Of a stretch of 64,000 bases of DNA, positions 37,359 to 56,332 are shown piece by piece. The notes below the pieces were generated by a model. That model was given only the letters and a program-made list of their open reading frames with translations. It was not told where the DNA came from and did not search any database. Source of the DNA: Anaerolineales bacterium. Its GTDB lineage: Bacteria > Chloroflexota > Anaerolineae > Anaerolineales > Villigracilaceae. The stretch lies in contig JAUXUL010000012.1 of NCBI GenBank assembly GCA_030680795.1, forward strand, positions 1 through 64,000, in the 5' to 3' direction. Positions within the stretch are counted from its first letter, which is position 1. Each line of letters starts with the position of its first letter. The position numbers and the translations under genes are program-made.

Positions 37359-38657
37359 ATGACAAATTCGCGCATCCCTGGGTTTTATAACCTGACTATC
37401 GAAGAACGCCGTGCCAAACTAACGGAAGTTTCGCAGCAGATTCCCGAAGACCTGCTCCCGTTTACAACAGGCGGACTCTCCTCTGAATCAGCCGACCACA
37501 TGATCGAGAACGTGATCGGTATGTATGCACTTCCCGTAGGCATCGGCTTGAACTTCATGGTCAATGGACGCGATGTACTCATTCCCTTTGTAATAGAAGA
37601 ACCATCGGTTGTAGCGGGCGCATCGTTCATGGCAAAACTCGCCCGCGCAGGCGGCGGATTCACAGCCACCACCACTGAGCCGTTGATGATCGGACAAATG
37701 CAGCTCATCAACGTGGTCAACATGAATGAAGCGCGGCTAAAGATCTATGAACATAAAGCCGAGTTACTCGCCATCGCAGATGCAATTGACCCCATCCTGA
37801 AAAAATTCGGCGGCGGCGCACGTGACCTCGAAGTCCGCATGATCGAAGACTCCCCCATTGGCCCGTTCATCGTCATTCATCTTATTTATGATGTGCGCGA
37901 TGCCATGGGCGCGAACGCGGTCAACACGGCCTGTGAAAAACTCGCCCCGCAAATTGAAGCCATCACGGGCGGAAAAGTTCATCTTCGTATTTTGTCCAAC
38001 CTGGCGGATCGCAGAATTGCCCGAGCGCGCTGTACAATTTCAGTAAGTGAATTGACCATCGGATTTGAATCCTTCAAAGGTGAGACCGTGCGCGACGGCA
38101 TTATCGCCGCCTGGGCTTTCGCCGCGACAGATCCATATCGCGCCGCGACCCATAACAAAGGCATCATGAACGGCGTGGATGCGGTTGTCATCGCCACTGG
38201 CAACGACTGGCGCGCCATCGAAGCGGGCGCTCATGCGTATGCGGCTCGTTCTGGCAAATACACTTCACTATCCACCTGGGGCAAGGACAAGGACGGCAAC
38301 CTCGTCGGCACGCTCGAAATGCCGATGGCAGTGGGAATCGTTGGCGGGGCAACCAGAGTCCACCCAGCTGCACAAGCCGCAGTTAAGTTAATGGGCGTGA
38401 AGACTGCATCCGAATTAGCAGAAATCATCGTTTCCGTTGGACTCGCCCAAAACATGGCCGCCCTGCGCGCCCTCGCCACCGAAGGTATCCAACGCGGGCA
38501 CATGTCCCTGCACGCCCGGCAGGTCGCCATCGCCGCGGGGGCGAGTGGCGAGATGATCGAGAAAGTCGCCGCGCAAATGGTGGCGGAGAAGATCGTGAGA
38601 AGTGATCGTGCGGAAGAGTTGGTAAAAGAGTACACGGGTAGACAGATAAACAAGTAG
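37359..38657 (+). CDS. mvaA: HMG-CoA reductase, degradative-type (class II)
   Basis: It interconverts HMG-CoA and mevalonate; in bacteria of this group the class II enzyme serves mevalonate biosynthesis. Class II signatures are ENVIGMYALPVGIGLNF (substrate contact, catalytic Glu), ATTTEPLMIG, DPYRAATHNKGIMNGVDAV (catalytic Lys region), and LEMPMAVGIVGGATRVHP. Length is 432 residues. The last nine residues (EYTGRQINK) and the stop codon lie inside a dispersed short-unit repeat and are probably not original. HMG-CoA synthase and a thiolase homologue follow after a 2.8-kb interruption. Confidence 0.93.
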   Translation: MTNSRIPGFYNLTIEERRAKLTEVSQQIPEDLLPFTTGGLSSESADHMIENVIGMYALPVGIGLNFMVNGRDVLIPFVIEEPSVVAGASFMAKLARAGGGFTATTTEPLMIGQMQLINVVNMNEARLKIYEHKAELLAIADAIDPILKKFGGGARDLEVRMIEDSPIGPFIVIHLIYDVRDAMGANAVNTACEKLAPQIEAITGGKVHLRILSNLADRRIARARCTISVSELTIGFESFKGETVRDGIIAAWAFAATDPYRAATHNKGIMNGVDAVVIATGNDWRAIEAGAHAYAARSGKYTSLSTWGKDKDGNLVGTLEMPMAVGIVGGATRVHPAAQAAVKLMGVKTASELAEIIVSVGLAQNMAALRALATEGIQRGHMSLHARQVAIAAGASGEMIEKVAAQMVAEKIVRSDRAEELVKEYTGRQINK

Positions 38658-41484: not shown

Positions 41485-42564
41485 ATGACACTCCCACAAC
41501 CTCACTCCCCCACCCTCCTCAAACCCGTCAAACCCGTCGGCATCATCGGCTACGGCGCGTATGTGCCGCGCTATCGTCTGCCCGCGAAGGAAGTCGCGCG
41601 CATATGGACAGGCGGCAAAGGCGGACTTCCCATCAAAGAGAAAGCAGTGCCTGGGCTTGATGAAGACGTTATCACCATGTCCATTGAAGCGGCGCGCAAT
41701 GCCATGCTCCGCGCTCAAATTGACCCGACAGAACTGCGGGCGGTCTGGGTCGGCTCTGAGTCGCATCCGTATGCGGTAAAACCAACTTCCACCCTGGTCG
41801 CGGAAGCGATTGGCGCAATCCCCAACACGCAAGGCGCGGATTTTGAGTTCGCCTGTAAAGCGGGTACCGAAGCGATGGTCGCTGCGATGGGATTGGTCGG
41901 TTCAGGCATGGGACATTACGCCATGGCCATCGGCATGGACACCGCGCAAGGCAAGCCAGGCGACGCGCTTGAATACACCTCGGGCGCGGGCGGCGGCGCA
42001 TATATCGTCGGCCCCGCCGAAGAGTCGCTGGCGATCATCAACGCCTCGTATTCCTACGTCACCGACACGCCCGATTTCTGGCGGCGCGAATATCAAAAAT
42101 ACCCCGAACACGGCATGCGTTTCACGGGCGAACCTGCCTACTTCAAGCACATCACCGAAGCCGCAACACATTTGATGGAAGCCAGCGGCATAACCGCCAA
42201 AGATTACAAGTGGGCGGTCTTCCATCAACCGAATACAAAATTCCCCCAGCGTGTCGCGGGTCAACTCGGATTTTCCGCCGAGCAGATCGCGCCTGGGCTT
42301 TTAGTCCACACGATTGGAAATACATACGCGGGCGCGGCCATGATCGGACTCACTGCGACTCTCGACATCGCCCAACCCGGCGATCGGATTCTGTGCGTCT
42401 CTTTCGGAAGTGGAGCTGGTTCCGACGCCTTCGACATTCTCGTCACTGACAAGGTCACCGCGCGCCAGGGTCTGGCGCTGAAGACACAAGATTACATCGC
42501 CAGACGCAGTGAAATAGATTATGCAACGTATGTGAGATTCCGCGGAAAGTTGCAAATGAAATAA
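41485..42564 (+). CDS. Hydroxymethylglutaryl-CoA synthase, archaeal type
   Basis: It condenses acetoacetyl-CoA with acetyl-CoA to HMG-CoA, the first committed mevalonate step. The archaeal-type enzyme (359 residues) shows [32 protein letters not shown] (catalytic Glu region), [19 protein letters not shown] (nucleophile Cys about residue 114) and [16 protein letters not shown] (catalytic His). The thiolase homologue is 170 bp downstream, the reductase upstream and the DUF35 gene about 7 kb away. In archaea the thiolase, HMGS and DUF35 proteins form one complex. Confidence 0.93.
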
Positions 42565-42734: not shown

Positions 42735-43901
42735 ATGACAGACGTAGTTATCGCAGGAATCGGACAAACCCCGGTCGGCGAGCATTGGGAGATTGGTCTG
42801 CGCGACCTGGCCTTTGACGCCATTCAAAACGCAATCAAAGACGCAAGCGGATTGAAACCGCAGGCTTTGTTTGTGGGCAATATGCTCGCGCCGAATCTTT
42901 CCAATCAGGCGCATCTCGGCGCGCTCATCGCGGATTATGCCGGTCTGACCGGCATCGAAGCCGTCACCGTTGAAGCCGCGGGCGCATCGGGCGGCGCGGC
43001 ATTGCGCCAGGGTTATCTCGCCATCGCAAGCGGCATGGTGGATGTGGCGCTCGTCCTCGGCGTGGAGAAGTTCACCGACAAGATCGGTCCGGAGGTGGAA
43101 GAGGCTGTTTCCACAACCAGCGATTCAGATTTTGAAGCCGTTCAAGGCATGACGGCCGCCGCGCAAGCCGCGCTGTTGATGAAGCGATACATGCACGAGA
43201 ACGATGTCCCTGCCAATGGGTTTGCAGGCTTTGCATTAACTGCCCATGCCAATGGCATTGCAAATAAAAATGCGATGTTCCGCAAAGCCATCAAAGCCGA
43301 GACTTATGCCAAAGCAGAAATGGTCAGCGACCCGCTCAATATGTTTGACGCAGCCCCCAATGCGGATGGCGCTGCCGCGCTCGTTCTAACCCGCCGAGAC
43401 CTGCTCCCGTCCGATTGGGACGCGCCGCGTCCACTCGTGAAGATCGCCGGCTCCGCCGCATCGTCTGACACGCTGGCGTTGCACGATAGAAAAGATATTT
43501 TATATTTTGACACAGCGCAAATCTCCGCAGGCAATGCCATGAAGCAAGCAGGAATTATTTTGAATCAAGTCAACTTCTTTGAATATCACGACGCGTTCAG
43601 CATCTATGCCGCATTGTCACTTGAAGCAGTTGGGTTTGCAATTAAAGGTCGCGGGTGGAAACTTGCCGCCGACAATAAAATTAGTTTAACGGGAAAGATT
43701 CCCTGCGCGACGATGGGCGGCATGAAAGCGCGCGGATTCCCCGGAGGCGCTTCAGGCGTGTATCAAGCCGTCGAAGCAGTGGCACAGTTACGAGGTCAGG
43801 CTGAGGTGAATCAAATTCCAAATGCAAAGTATGGGCTCATCCAATCGCTTGGCGGGCCGGCCTCCACAGCAGTCAGTCATATCCTACAAAGATTGGATTA
43901 A
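42735..43901 (+). CDS. Thiolase-family protein lacking canonical catalytic residues
   Basis: Homologue of the archaeal thiolase that feeds HMG-CoA synthase (388 residues from the ATG preceded by GGAG). The fold segments are all there: VVIAGIGQTPVG, VEAAGASGGAALRQG, NAMKQAGIILNQVNFFEYHD, and GGMKARGFPGGASGVYQ. The nucleophile position, normally Cys in EAACASG, is Gly (codon GGC), and the His of GHPxGAxG is replaced by Phe. The other active-site His of HDAF is kept. It may be a non-catalytic or altered subunit in the thiolase-HMGS-DUF35 assembly. Acetoacetyl-CoA could then come from another thiolase. Confidence 0.8.
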   Translation: MTDVVIAGIGQTPVGEHWEIGLRDLAFDAIQNAIKDASGLKPQALFVGNMLAPNLSNQAHLGALIADYAGLTGIEAVTVEAAGASGGAALRQGYLAIASGMVDVALVLGVEKFTDKIGPEVEEAVSTTSDSDFEAVQGMTAAAQAALLMKRYMHENDVPANGFAGFALTAHANGIANKNAMFRKAIKAETYAKAEMVSDPLNMFDAAPNADGAAALVLTRRDLLPSDWDAPRPLVKIAGSAASSDTLALHDRKDILYFDTAQISAGNAMKQAGIILNQVNFFEYHDAFSIYAALSLEAVGFAIKGRGWKLAADNKISLTGKIPCATMGGMKARGFPGGASGVYQAVEAVAQLRGQAEVNQIPNAKYGLIQSLGGPASTAVSHILQRLD

Positions 43902-49405: not shown

Positions 49406-49816
49406 ATGGAAATCCCAAGGCACTGGCGACTCAAGAAACAACGATACGGATTGGTCGGCGAAGCCTGCCCGCACTGTGATCACAAGATTTTCCCGCCCCG
49501 CGATGTCTGCCCCAATTGCGGCGACGAGGCAAAAGAACAATTTACATTCAGCGGCAAAGGCGAAGTTTATTCATATACAACGGTTTACGAAGCCCCCGCA
49601 GGTTTCGAGGCAAATGCTCCCTACACAGTGGCAATCGTGAAATTGGAGGAAGGTCCCATGCTTACCGCGCAGTTGACAGACATAGGCGAACAACCGATTG
49701 AGATCGGCATGCCCGTGGAAATGGTCACTCGCAAGATGCGTAATGATGGCGATGAACGTGGGTTGATTGTTTACGGGTATAAATTCAGGCCCGCCTGGAA
49801 TATGCTCACCAAATAG
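49406..49816 (+). CDS. DUF35 (Zn-ribbon OB-fold) acyl-CoA-associated protein
   Basis: A 136-residue DUF35 protein with four zinc cysteines in CPHCDHKIFPPRDVCPNC (about residues 20-37) and an OB-fold with GKGEVYSYTTVYEAP and YTVAIVKLEEGPMLTAQL. In archaea this family bridges thiolase and HMG-CoA synthase and channels acetoacetyl-CoA. Both partners are encoded 5.5-8 kb upstream. AAAGGA precedes the ATG, and a strong terminator follows. Confidence 0.88.
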   Translation: MEIPRHWRLKKQRYGLVGEACPHCDHKIFPPRDVCPNCGDEAKEQFTFSGKGEVYSYTTVYEAPAGFEANAPYTVAIVKLEEGPMLTAQLTDIGEQPIEIGMPVEMVTRKMRNDGDERGLIVYGYKFRPAWNMLTK

Positions 49817-51803: not shown

Positions 51804-52883
51804 TTACCTCGTGGATCTTTGGATCTGCTGGACGACCATATCGCCCATTTGCGTTGTGCTGATGCCGCTGCGCGCGTCGGTGGACGGGATTTTTCCGCTG
51901 GAAAGCAAATAAGCCACACTGTCTTCAATGCGTTTTGCCGCGGCTTTTTCGCCGAGGTAGTCCATCATCATGCTCACCGCCATGACCGCCCCAAGCGGAC
52001 AGGCGACATTCTTCCCGGCGTACTTCGGCGCGGAGCCGTGGATCGGCTCAAACATGGAGGTCTTGCCCGGATGCAGGTTGCCCGAGGCGGCGATGCCCAT
52101 CCCGCCCTGCAGCATGGAACCGAGATCGGTGATGATGTCGCCGAACAGGTTGGTGGTCACGATCACGTCGTACCACTCCGGCTTTTTGATCATCCACATC
52201 GTACACGCATCCACGTAAGCGTGGTCTTGTTCGATATCCGGGTATTCCTGCCCGACTTCGGCAAAGGTGCGCGTCCAAATATCGTGCGGACGGATGGCAT
52301 TGGCTTTATCCACCATGGTCAAACGCCCCGGCCTTTTGCGTTCGGCGGCGCGGGCGCGCGCCAGTTCGAACCCATAGCGGATGGCGCGCTCCACACCTTT
52401 GCGCGTGAAGACGCTTGTGGAGGTCGAGACTTCATCCGGCGTGCCTTTCTTTAGGATGCCGCCAATTTGCGAATATTCGCCCTCAGTGTTTTCACGCACG
52501 ACATAGAAATCAATATCATCAGGACCTTTGCCTTTGAGCGGACAAAGCGCCTCAGCGTAGAGTTTGATCGGGCGCAGGTTAATGTACAGGTCCAGCCCGA
52601 AGCGCAAACCGAGAATGACCGAGCGCTCGACCAATCCCGTTTCCACATCGGGGTGGCCGATCGCGCCGAGGAAAACCGCGTCCAGGCTGCGCCATTCGTC
52701 AATCACTCGATCAGGGACAAGTTCCTTTGTCTTGAGATAATACGTGCCGGAATAAGGGTATTCGATGAAGTTGCAGTCGAAACCGCCGTCCTTCATTACG
52801 GTGCGCAAGGCTTTCAAACCCTCCGCTGCAACTTCAGGACCGATTCCATCCCCGCCAAGAACGCCGATGTTGTATGTTTTCAT
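51804..52883 (-). CDS. leuB: 3-Isopropylmalate dehydrogenase-family enzyme
   Basis: An NAD-dependent beta-hydroxyacid oxidative decarboxylase (359 residues). Motifs are IGVLGGDGIGPEV, LRFGLDLYINLRPIKLYA (substrate loop), FYVVRENTEGEYSQIGG, TMVDKANAIRP, YDVIVTTNLFGDIITD and MFEPIHGSAPKYAGKN. Substrate residues resemble the LeuB/tartrate-dehydrogenase/homoisocitrate branch, so isopropylmalate is one option, not proven. It is the last gene of the cluster and follows the LeuD fusion gene after a hairpin repeat. GGAG precedes the ATG. Confidence 0.88.
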   Translation of the reverse strand: MKTYNIGVLGGDGIGPEVAAEGLKALRTVMKDGGFDCNFIEYPYSGTYYLKTKELVPDRVIDEWRSLDAVFLGAIGHPDVETGLVERSVILGLRFGLDLYINLRPIKLYAEALCPLKGKGPDDIDFYVVRENTEGEYSQIGGILKKGTPDEVSTSTSVFTRKGVERAIRYGFELARARAAERKRPGRLTMVDKANAIRPHDIWTRTFAEVGQEYPDIEQDHAYVDACTMWMIKKPEWYDVIVTTNLFGDIITDLGSMLQGGMGIAASGNLHPGKTSMFEPIHGSAPKYAGKNVACPLGAVMAVSMMMDYLGEKAAAKRIEDSVAYLLSSGKIPSTDARSGISTTQMGDMVVQQIQRSTR

Positions 52884-52947: not shown

Positions 52948-55017
52948 TTAGTTTTGTTTTTCCGCGAGCCTTTCCTCCGCATAAGCAAGCAGCCCACCCA
53001 CGTCAATGATGCGCCGCAAAAAATCGGGGAAGGGCACAGCCTGGTATTGCGCGCCAGTCGTCAGGTTACGGATGACTCCCGCGGCTGGTTCCACTTCGAT
53101 CTCATCGCCTTCGTTGATCCCATCCACCGCCTGAGGACATTCCAGGATCGGCAAGCCAATGTTGATGGCGTTGCGGAAGAAGATGCGCGCAAAGGATTTG
53201 GCGATGACCGCCGAGACGCCCGCAGCTTTTATGGTAAGCGGCGCGACCTCACGCGACGATCCACAGCCGAAATTTGAATCAGCGACAATGAGATCGCCGC
53301 GCTTCATTTTTTGGACGAAGTTCGCGTCGGCGTCTTCCATGCAGTGCAGGGATAGTTCGCGCGGGTCGGCGGTGTTGCAATGGCGCGCGGGGATGATCGC
53401 GTCGGTATCCACGTTTCTGCCAAACTTCCATGCGTGACCGTGAATACGCACTCGCTCGCGCAGGTAATCCTTTTGCACGGGTCCGCCAGCATGGCGCGGC
53501 AGGGCATCAAAGAAAAGGATTCGATCCGGGCGGGCATAATCAGGCAGGCGCGCTTCGGTAAAGGCAAGCACTTCTTGCGCGGTGAGTTTTGCTTTTTCTT
53601 CAGGCACAATGCACGCATAGGTTAACTCACCGAAGATCAAATCTGGGATGCCAACTACTGCCGCGTCTTTGACTCCCGGAAGCGAACGCAAGACCATTTC
53701 AACATTGCCGGGGTAGATTTTGAATCCGCCGCGAATGATGACTTCATGTTTGCGCCCAACGATACGGACGGGTCCATCTGCGTCAATGACTGCGAGGTCG
53801 CTCGTGCACAGCCAGCCTTCCTTATCCAGGACTTGCGCTGTGTCTTCGGGGTTTTCCCAATATCCCGTCATGATGTTGTAGCCGCGCACGCACAGTTCGC
53901 CTTCTTCGCCATACGGCAGGGATGCGCCTTCGGCGTTAATGACCTTGAGTTCGATGTCGCCCAATGGGGTTCCGACTGTTTCCGTGGCGGTGATGGGACC
54001 GTCGTCGAGTTGGGTCATTGTGACGGCGGGCGAGGCTTCGGTCAAGCCGTAACCGATCAGCAATTTGAAACCCATTTCTTCGCGGGCGCGGCGCACGAGT
54101 TCGGGAGGGCAAGGCGCGCCTGCCATAACGCCCGTGCGAAGGGTCGCGCATGACGATGCGCGGAAGTCCGCGTGATTCAATTCGAGCGCGAACATGGTTG
54201 GGACACCGGAGAGGATGGTAACGCCGGTCTCTTTGATCAGCCTCAAGGCTTCCCTGGGGCGGTAATGCGGCATACAAACCAATTGCGCGCCTGAGACTAC
54301 GCAGGTAAGCGCGATGGCGGTAATACCGAAGGTGTTGGAAAATGGAATTGTACCGAGGAAAATATCTTCCGCCGTGCAATCCAAGCGTGAAGCGATATCT
54401 GCCGCGTTATGCACCAATCCGCCGTGAGTCAGGATTGCGCCGCGCGGTTCGCCTGAACTACCCAGCGAATGGATGATAGCCGCCGCATCATGAGGTTTTG
54501 CGACCGATGGTGCAAGGGGCGCGGTATCCCTCAGCAGGCTATCCCAGGAAATGACGCCGTCTTTTTTCTGCGCCTTGGATGCGGAAGTGGAGATCACAAA
54601 GCGCAATTCGGGCAGACTGCCGCGCATGTCCAACGCCATATCGAGATGATCCATGCCGTTGAATTGTTTTTGATCAGAAAAGGTGATCAGCGCTTTTGGT
54701 TTTGTTTTTGTAAGGCGCGCGAGCGCGCCGGCGCGGTCGCGGCGCACATTGACCGGCACAAGGATCAAACCCGCTTTGGCGGCGGCAAAGATCGTGATCA
54801 CGTATGCAGGTGTATTGGGCAGTGTCGCGCCAAGACGATCTCCGGGCTTGAGTCCTAACTCGATCAGTCCCGCGGCGAGCGAGCAAGCCTGTAGTTCCAC
54901 GTCTGCATAAGACCAGCGTTCCTTGTCTAGGCGTAAAAAGGTCTGGTTGGAAAAACGCAACGCCTGGACGCTTAACAATTCGCCAATGGTTGTATTGTGA
55001 AATGTTTCATAAGTCAT
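52948..55017 (-). CDS. Acyl-CoA ligase fused to 3-isopropylmalate dehydratase small subunit (LeuD)
   Basis: One 689-residue frame joins two enzymes. Residues 1-about 520 are an AMP-forming acyl-CoA ligase: LGSSGEPRGAILTHG (AMP-binding loop), LIGYGLTEASPAVTMTQL, GWLCTSDLAVIDADG, EVIIRGGFKIYPGNVEMVL, and the catalytic Lys in GPVQKDYLRE. Residues about 523-689 are a complete LeuD: WKFGRNVDTDAIIPARH, SNFGCGSSREVAPLTIKAAG, FARIFFRNAINIGLPILECP. The LeuD begins exactly where a normal start would be (a GTG at 53451), with no stop between. LeuC is the next gene upstream. The pairing suggests acid activation and 2-oxoacid isomerisation in one pathway. Confidence 0.88.
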   Translation of the reverse strand: MTYETFHNTTIGELLSVQALRFSNQTFLRLDKERWSYADVELQACSLAAGLIELGLKPGDRLGATLPNTPAYVITIFAAAKAGLILVPVNVRRDRAGALARLTKTKPKALITFSDQKQFNGMDHLDMALDMRGSLPELRFVISTSASKAQKKDGVISWDSLLRDTAPLAPSVAKPHDAAAIIHSLGSSGEPRGAILTHGGLVHNAADIASRLDCTAEDIFLGTIPFSNTFGITAIALTCVVSGAQLVCMPHYRPREALRLIKETGVTILSGVPTMFALELNHADFRASSCATLRTGVMAGAPCPPELVRRAREEMGFKLLIGYGLTEASPAVTMTQLDDGPITATETVGTPLGDIELKVINAEGASLPYGEEGELCVRGYNIMTGYWENPEDTAQVLDKEGWLCTSDLAVIDADGPVRIVGRKHEVIIRGGFKIYPGNVEMVLRSLPGVKDAAVVGIPDLIFGELTYACIVPEEKAKLTAQEVLAFTEARLPDYARPDRILFFDALPRHAGGPVQKDYLRERVRIHGHAWKFGRNVDTDAIIPARHCNTADPRELSLHCMEDADANFVQKMKRGDLIVADSNFGCGSSREVAPLTIKAAGVSAVIAKSFARIFFRNAINIGLPILECPQAVDGINEGDEIEVEPAAGVIRNLTTGAQYQAVPFPDFLRRIIDVGGLLAYAEERLAEKQN

Positions 55018-55075: not shown

Positions 55076-56332
55076 TTACAAATCGGCCGGTGAAATGATT
55101 CTTCCCGCAACAGCAGACGCCGCGGCGACATATGGATTCGCAAGATACACTTCGCTTGCAATGTGTCCCATGCGCCCGCGGAAGTTGCGGTTGCTGGTGG
55201 AAACGCAGCGTTCGCCGGCGGCAAGCACGCCCATGTGACCGCCAAGACAAGGTCCGCAAGTGGGAGTGCTGACCGAGCAATTGGCTTCGATGAAGATTTC
55301 GATCAAGCCTTCACGCAGCGCGTCCAAATAAACCTTTTGCGAGCCGGGGATGATCACTGCGCGCACGCGCGGATGTATCTTGCGTCCTTTGAGGATTTCC
55401 GCCGCGGCGCGCAGGTCTTCCAGGTTGCCGTTGGTACACATGCCGATCACTGCCTGATTGATTTCCATGTGATTTAATACTGAAACCGGTTTGACGTTTT
55501 CCGGGATAAAGGGGACTGCGACAAACGGTTCAAAATGGGATACATCAATTTCATGGATGTCAGCATACTCCGCATCCGCGTCGCTCCGCAGGTAGAGACC
55601 GTCGTCCCTGCCGCGCGCACGGACGTACTGTCTTGCCTTTTCATCCGCTTCAAACAGACCCGCTTTCGCTCCCGCTTCGATTGCCATGTTCGCCATTGAG
55701 AAGCGGTCGCTCATGCCCATATTTTCAATCGTTTCACCTGTAAATTCCATGGCTTGATAGCGCGCGCCTTCCACGCCAATGCGCGCGATGGTGTGCAGGA
55801 TCAAGTCCTTGCCACCGACCCATTTTGGCAGTTTGCCGTGATAGATAAACTTCACACTTTCAGGCACTTTCATCCACATCTCGCCGATCGCCATCGCTAC
55901 AGCCGCGTCGGTGGAACCGATCCCCGTACCAAACGCACCGACAAATCCATGCGTGCAGGTGTGCGAATCCGCGCCTGCGATCAGGTCTCCCGGCGCGATC
56001 AATCCCTGCTCGGGCAATAGAATATGCTGGATGCCGGCGCGCCCCACATCGTAAAAGCGGATGCCATGTTTCTGCGCGAACTCGCGGCATTTCTTGACGA
56101 TCTCCGCGCTCTTGATGTCTTTCGCAGGCGTGAAGTGATCCATTACGAAGACGATCTTCTTTGGGTCGAAAACACGCGCGTTCTTGATCTTTTCAAACTC
56201 TTCGATGGCGAGCACGCCCGACAGTTCCGATGCCAGCACCAGGTCCACACGGGCGTTGATGAACTGTCCAGGCGAGAGATCGGACTGGTCGCATTTAGCG
56301 GCGAGAATTTTTTCAGCGAGAGTATGTCCCAT
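55076..56332 (-). CDS. leuC: 3-Isopropylmalate/homoaconitate dehydratase large subunit
   Basis: An aconitase-superfamily [4Fe-4S] protein that, with a LeuD partner, isomerises a 2-alkylmalate to a 3-alkylmalate. Length is 418 residues, the prokaryotic LeuC2/HacA size. Signatures are GADSHTCTHGFVGAFGTGIG, EINQAVIGMCTNGNLEDL (first cluster Cys) and CSVSTPTCGPCLGGHMG (further cluster Cys), followed by STSNRNFRGRMGH. The partner small subunit is fused to the acyl-CoA ligase encoded next. Substrate could be isopropylmalate, citramalate/homocitrate-type or an aryl analogue. Confidence 0.92.
   Translation of the reverse strand: MGHTLAEKILAAKCDQSDLSPGQFINARVDLVLASELSGVLAIEEFEKIKNARVFDPKKIVFVMDHFTPAKDIKSAEIVKKCREFAQKHGIRFYDVGRAGIQHILLPEQGLIAPGDLIAGADSHTCTHGFVGAFGTGIGSTDAAVAMAIGEMWMKVPESVKFIYHGKLPKWVGGKDLILHTIARIGVEGARYQAMEFTGETIENMGMSDRFSMANMAIEAGAKAGLFEADEKARQYVRARGRDDGLYLRSDADAEYADIHEIDVSHFEPFVAVPFIPENVKPVSVLNHMEINQAVIGMCTNGNLEDLRAAAEILKGRKIHPRVRAVIIPGSQKVYLDALREGLIEIFIEANCSVSTPTCGPCLGGHMGVLAAGERCVSTSNRNFRGRMGHIASEVYLANPYVAAASAVAGRIISPADL

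Follow-up and report, generated by a model that had tools for sequence, protein, structure and literature searches.

The thiolase-like gene and its neighbours

The window, by which we mean the whole stretch of 64,000 nucleotides that was analysed, carries a thiolase homologue directly behind an HMG-CoA synthase gene. The features that concern us are as follows.

37359 to 38657, + strand: HMG-CoA reductase (HMGR), the next pathway step, over the TIGR00532 cut-off
41485 to 42564, + strand: archaeal-type HMG-CoA synthase (HMGS), over the NF003274 and TIGR00748 cut-offs, with Glu92, Cys124 and His247 intact
42735 to 43901, + strand: open frame of a thiolase homologue without the nucleophile (pseudo-thiolase), 388 amino acids, with Gly83, His285 and Phe335
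42981 to 42983, + strand: GGC codon of Gly83, which in the alignment to solved thiolases matches the nucleophilic Cys
43737 to 43739, + strand: TTC codon of Phe335, at the place of the His in GHPxGA in the same alignment
49406 to 49816, + strand: DUF35 protein (zinc ribbon and OB fold) with four zinc Cys, the presumed third subunit of the complex; closest solved chain 6esq_E

The original prediction held that Gly replaces the catalytic Cys of this thiolase homologue, that Phe replaces the His of GHPxGA, and that the partner HMGS keeps all of its catalytic residues. Both substitutions were confirmed from the translation and codons of 42735 to 43901, and the HMGS triad was indeed found complete. 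The nucleophile loop reads VEAAGASGG and includes Gly83, the GHP loop reads KARGFPGGASG and includes Phe335, and the second catalytic His is retained as His285 (HDAF). At the places of Gly83 and Phe335, the best-matching solved chains, 7yvy_A and 6esq_A, have Cys and His. His285 is the only one of the three catalytic residues of the archaeal-type thiolase (NF004720, PRK06064) left in the window protein. The window protein scores 386.2 bits against this model and a second Cys-less protein (L162) scores 341.7, both below the cut-off of 420 bits, while Cys-bearing proteins (L155, L160 and L130) score 447.8 to 500.5. Loss of thiolase chemistry in the window protein is, to judge from these residues, near certain.

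Descent and fold are nevertheless those of an archaeal-type thiolase. The window protein branches among Cys-bearing members, and its AlphaFold model (pLDDT 94.0) is closest to 6esq_A, with a Z score of 61.5 and an rmsd of 1.5 over 385 residues at 36% identity; 7yvy_A follows with Z 59.5. The best solved match of both HMGS and DUF35 is likewise the Methanothermococcus thermolithotrophicus complex. The DUF35 gene lies about 5.5 kb downstream of the thiolase homologue and does not adjoin it. Compared with a thiolase/HMGS/DUF35 complex, HMGS and DUF35 are present nearby or in the same genome and the HMGS triad is in place, but the Cys of the active thiolase subunit is replaced by Gly83.

Further downstream in the window, a single open frame on the minus strand (52948 to 55017) encodes an AMP-binding acyl-CoA ligase fused to a LeuD-like domain of the aconitase C-terminal type. 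It is flanked by an isopropylmalate dehydrogenase-like gene (51804 to 52883) and a LeuC-like gene (55076 to 56332), both named by eye.

Conservation of the substitution among close relatives

We scanned the contigs of named genomes for close relatives only, using patterns that contain none of the three catalytic positions, and kept 79 loci. Nearly all were from Chloroflexota, mostly Anaerolineales, together with one entry titled only 'bacterium' and one from a Phycisphaerales bin. Among 78 unique close relatives, site 83 was Gly in 75 and Asp in one, and was uncovered in two. The original prediction had named Cys and His in relatives as the mark of a recent mutation or read error; Cys was absent from all 76 close relatives covering the site. 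Because the same change occurs in relatives from independent assemblies, Gly83 is a group trait and not an error. A sequencing error, a recent mutation or a decaying pseudogene in this one genome has next to no chance of being the explanation, as the independent assemblies agree, the frame is open, omega is about 0.25 in the group and the model is well folded.

Taking all Cys-less proteins together, Gly83 was found in 122 of 136; in the remaining 14 the residue is Asp, Glu, Gln or Thr. Phe335 is found mainly in the window's own group (77 of 98 proteins in one set and none of the 38 in the second); outside its carriers, position 335 of the Cys-less proteins is Asn, Asp, Tyr or, in four cases, His. 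The order HMGR, HMGS, thiolase homologue recurs in many relatives, and DUF35 then follows in part of the loci.

The Phycisphaerales-titled bin contributed a short contig (L079, L252-L254) with an Anaerolineae-like arrangement of HMGR, HMGS, Gly-bearing thiolase homologue and DUF35, in which HMGS and the thiolase homologue are each split into two matches. This contig is probably misplaced in the bin.

Distribution over Chloroflexota and beyond

To describe the distribution over the phylum, we drew 400 Chloroflexota genomes and counted a thiolase homologue at E <= 1e-60 and HMGS at the TIGR00748 cut-off. The homologue was found in 105 genomes and HMGS in 90. All 90 HMGS genomes have the homologue. 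In 89 of them it shares a contig with HMGS and lies no more than 2,392 bases away, within 300 bases in 72; in the last (G246), HMGS is broken off at a contig end. By residue, 75 of the 90 are Cys-less and 15 have Cys. One more genome, G295, is Cys-less, and its HMGS is truncated and falls under the cut-off. In the window's own family, two genomes without HMGS (G248 and G367) are also without the Cys-less protein, and G367 retains two other homologues, both with Cys.

Of the unique proteins, 150 had an HMGS encoded on their own strand within the stretch that was retrieved, and these comprise 15 with the Cys-His-His set, 134 without the Cys and one in which the site is uncovered; the Cys is thus lost in 134 of the 149 proteins covering the site and present in 15. 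The HMGS partners have Glu, Cys and His intact at 132 Cys-less and 15 Cys loci, and the remaining three HMGS matches are partial and show no substitution. DUF35 was present in 37 of 38 Cys-less genomes searched, the exception being G392 (96% complete). It was also present in all 38 Cys-less genomes of four families (f25, f35, f61 and f64), which belong to another class of the same phylum, probably Chloroflexia by our guess.

We also sampled 199 genomes of the phylum to which the Phycisphaerales bin belongs (Planctomycetota by the title of that bin), of which 14 had a homologue, and read ten loci. Nine of nine HMGS-linked Planctomycetota loci read have Cys-His-His, with HMGS and DUF35 adjacent; the tenth is the Gly-bearing contig of the Phycisphaerales bin. 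Archaea were represented by two solved outgroup chains. Across the sampled Chloroflexota, the loss of the Cys is old and common to most genomes with HMGS. In a literature search, mostly of open-access papers and without the primary paper on the archaeal complex, no description of an HMGS-linked thiolase lacking the Cys was found for Chloroflexota. The word 'thiolase' is absent from the main text of two papers on mevalonate pathways that include Chloroflexota (PMC11052028, PMC3857490).

Evolutionary history and selection

We constructed a phylogenetic tree from a 76-row set, in which 28 rows have Cys-His-His and the remainder are Cys-less; no row has the Cys with a missing His. In the best tree, the Cys-less HMGS-linked proteins (44 representatives) form one clade nested among Cys-bearing proteins (support 90/92), which agrees with the proposal of a subfamily trait over a read error. 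The clade persists with 62 pocket columns dropped (support 87/94). With 6esq as the outgroup, the Cys is ancestral. Independent losses in several lineages were considered and set aside, since the best tree has one loss with or without the pocket columns, but two groupings that would imply additional losses survived the AU tests (p 0.479 and 0.368). Mapped onto the HMGS tree, the labels live and dead require four changes, at least two of them forced by well-supported branches, so that somewhere a gene has likely been replaced or the Cys lost a second time. Our claim is limited to a single loss or a few, or to the replacement of some of the genes.

Sixty columns are invariant in 27 Cys-bearing rows. 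The Cys-less clade retains 43 of them and has lost 17, including 82, 83, 122, 128, 141, 285, 288, 330, 335, 336, 337 and 376. Several of the lost columns presumably line the pocket. At the threshold used, Thr140 is the only residue gained clade-wide. Both His positions change as well after the loss of the Cys: of the 44 representatives, 19 have His at residue 285 and two have it at residue 335. Across the clade, residue 285 is His, Ser, Thr, Tyr, Asp, Phe or Cys, with no common acid/base. A substitute nucleophile was also sought; the commonest other Cys column, residue 324, is Cys in 15 of the 44 representatives and is not general.

By the selection estimates, the Cys-less protein is under purifying selection. 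Among pairs with dS < 1.5, Cys-less proteins had a median dN/dS of about 0.25, HMGS-linked Cys proteins one of 0.21, HMGS one of 0.24 and the free Cys paralogue one of 0.40. The median distance ratio relative to HMGS was 1.84 for the Cys-less, 0.95 for the linked Cys and 1.43 for the free Cys proteins, with many pairs near saturation. Faster evolution was rejected as a mark of dead function: rate alone proves little, because the free Cys paralogue is likewise fast (1.43) and its omega exceeds that of the Cys-less proteins.

A second Cys-less paralogue group (L156, L157, L158 and L169) forms a clade of its own. Its members have Thr at the place of the Cys, keep both His residues and have no HMGS in the fetched stretch.

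Other thiolases and the source of acetoacetyl-CoA

If the HMGS-linked protein is dead, acetoacetyl-CoA would have to come from elsewhere, as the original prediction proposed. The genome contents fit this. A canonical thiolase over the TIGR01930 cut-off was found in 75 of 76 Cys-less genomes compared with 9 of 15 with Cys (one as two fragments), a difference with a Fisher p of 5e-5 that ignores kinship. As the best tree has one loss, this correlation amounts to roughly one evolutionary event. The source genome has three TIGR01930 matches, and in its canonical thiolase on contig C25 the CASG, NEAF, GHP and CVG set is intact by eye. The sole Cys-less genome without a canonical thiolase is G385 (92% complete).

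The dead subunit could instead form a working hetero-oligomer with a Cys-bearing paralogue encoded elsewhere. The source genome does contain such a paralogue of the window gene (G000 C8:130911-132047, where no match to HMGS lies within 7 kb), as do 31 others of the 76 Cys-less genomes. However, at E <= 1e-60 and among the best few candidates per genome, no paralogue was found in the other 44, and for that reason a mixed pair is unlikely as a general explanation; we rejected a hetero-dimer of this kind and give the mixed pair only a slim chance.

The same genome encodes a distant thiolase homologue (G000:C49:39254-40438, L161) in which Gly again occupies the Cys position (EGGGATGG) and GHP is kept. 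In another genome of the window's order (G232, locus L141), the gene next to HMGS and DUF35 encodes a protein of the Cys-bearing paralogue type, and a search at E <= 1e-60 turned up no free canonical thiolase. A live subunit may have replaced the dead one in this genome.

Comparison with known systems

The closest known system is the acetoacetyl-CoA thiolase subunit of M. thermolithotrophicus (6ESQ, 6ET9), which is the best structural match and has matching HMGS and DUF35 partners and conserved neighbours. The window protein differs from it in having Gly for Cys and Phe for the His of GHP, and its DUF35 gene is not adjacent. Among solved chains, the best sequence match is the Pyrococcus furiosus thiolase PFC_04095 (7YVY; 46-49% identity), which has the Cys and both His residues that the window protein lacks in part. 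The thiolase-like protein ST0096 of Sulfolobus tokodaii (4YZO) is Cys-less too, with Ser at the aligned place, but it keeps GHP and shares 26-28% identity with the window protein.

A precedent for a dead thiolase-fold subunit kept in a complex comes from the Friedel-Crafts acylase PhlACB (5M3K), which has the same three-part architecture. As described in PMC6392133, the Cys of its HMGS-like PhlA is replaced by Gly115 and the Glu by Cys83, only residues of PhlC act, and PhlC has an acylated Cys88. PhlACB is therefore a mirror image of the window's arrangement, with the HMGS-like subunit dead and the thiolase-like one active, and it is not a mevalonate enzyme. The case shows that a complex of this kind can retain a subunit without catalytic residues. 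The window protein itself is no PhlC-type acyltransferase by its residues, since Gly83 occupies the place equivalent to Cys88.

The steroid aldolases Ltp2-ChsH2(DUF35) and Sal-Shy(DUF35) share the thiolase fold and a DUF35 partner and work without the nucleophile, as PMC12329534 states for Sal. They raise the alternative that the window protein is a repurposed enzyme for another acyl-CoA reaction, for example a retro-aldol cleavage. Sal has Gly at the place of the thiolase nucleophile (PMC12329534), and two pocket residues are newly fixed in the four families treated below. In our own reading of the motif, however, the essential Tyr of Ltp2 and Sal (YDHF/YDCY) maps to residue 285, which is HDAF in the window and has no common acid/base, or any common residue, across the clade; an aldolase of the Ltp2/Sal type was rejected on these grounds. 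Beyond this, Thr140 is the only clade-wide gain at the threshold used, many relatives stand in a row with HMGR and HMGS, a different pathway from that of the aldolases, and the aldolases reach Z 48 to 49, below the 61.5 of 6esq_A, with a shared fold showing no function in any case. We regard a repurposed enzyme as improbable.

A rebuilt pocket in four families

Cys-less proteins of f25, f35, f61 and f64 have His288 in 38 of 38, Asp335 in 37 of 38 and Trp145 in 38 of 38, and the AlphaFold model of an f35 member is again of high confidence (pLDDT 91.6). The DUF35 protein beside them (loci among L162-L175 and L202-L226) has none of the four zinc Cys in 37 of 38 genomes and one of the four at L165. 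In the one partner checked with Pfam (L173), the OB-fold domain was recognised and the zinc-ribbon domain was not.

Free drift would not fix these pocket residues, so they are not drifting freely. The fixed pocket may reflect mere pocket filling or a new function. With a rebuilt pocket and a DUF35 that lacks its zinc Cys, the dead subunit could be more than a scaffold: the assembly may have acquired an additional chemistry or a site for a regulatory ligand, or HMGS may no longer depend on a thiolase in its own complex and make or accept acetoacetyl-CoA otherwise. We hold this to be unlikely. The 'different chemistry' that the original prediction offered as an option is most alive in these four families, with their newly fixed His288/Asp335 pair.

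A further alternative is a regulatory or acyl-CoA-holding subunit, in which the dead site would bind CoA or acetoacetyl-CoA and gate HMGS without being needed for folding. Many fold residues are kept, Lys331, Arg333 and the DGAA stretch among them, and a shared CoA site has been described for the archaeal complex (PMC6392133, PMC12329534). Against this, the pocket of the four families may be occupied by Trp145 and further bulky residues. Such a subunit seems unlikely.

A probable structural role in the HMGS/DUF35 assembly

In the archaeal complex, according to PMC6392133 and PMC12329534, thiolase and HMGS are held together by DUF35, and the CoA site lies at an interface built from residues of all three proteins. 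The arrangement has been explained by channelling, as the CoA site is common to thiolase and HMGS and the intermediate is not released (PMC12329534). In the sample, the homologue is retained wherever HMGS is retained, which suggests a structural partner rather than an enzyme. A scaffold role is likely in view of this strict co-occurrence with HMGS, the purifying selection and the kept fold of the model. We consider it quite probable that the pseudo-thiolase is a structural part of the HMGS/DUF35 assembly and that acetoacetyl-CoA is made elsewhere.

The dead subunit would still complete the HMGS/DUF35 assembly, and perhaps the CoA site of HMGS as well, which would explain why an HMGS of the archaeal type keeps it. 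Acetoacetyl-CoA would be produced by the free canonical thiolase and would reach HMGS from solution; with entry from solution, direct channelling would have been given up.

Several observations run against a scaffold. The genes have drifted apart in the window, with DUF35 5.5 kb away, and two genomes are counter-cases, G385 with no canonical thiolase found and G392 with no DUF35 found. The pocket is not drifting freely, and the fixed His288 and Asp335 in the four families could be a new function.

Over much of the phylum, a conserved pseudo-thiolase stands where the known complex has its active subunit. In 75 of the 90 sampled Chloroflexota with HMGS, an HMGS-linked gene labelled 'thiolase' or 'acetyl-CoA acetyltransferase' is probably misannotated. 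On a scaffold reading, Chloroflexota would keep the architecture of the complex and drop the thiolase chemistry, so that the two roles are separated. They would offer a natural test of what an archaeal-type HMGS requires its thiolase partner for: structure or the binding of CoA, as opposed to channelling.
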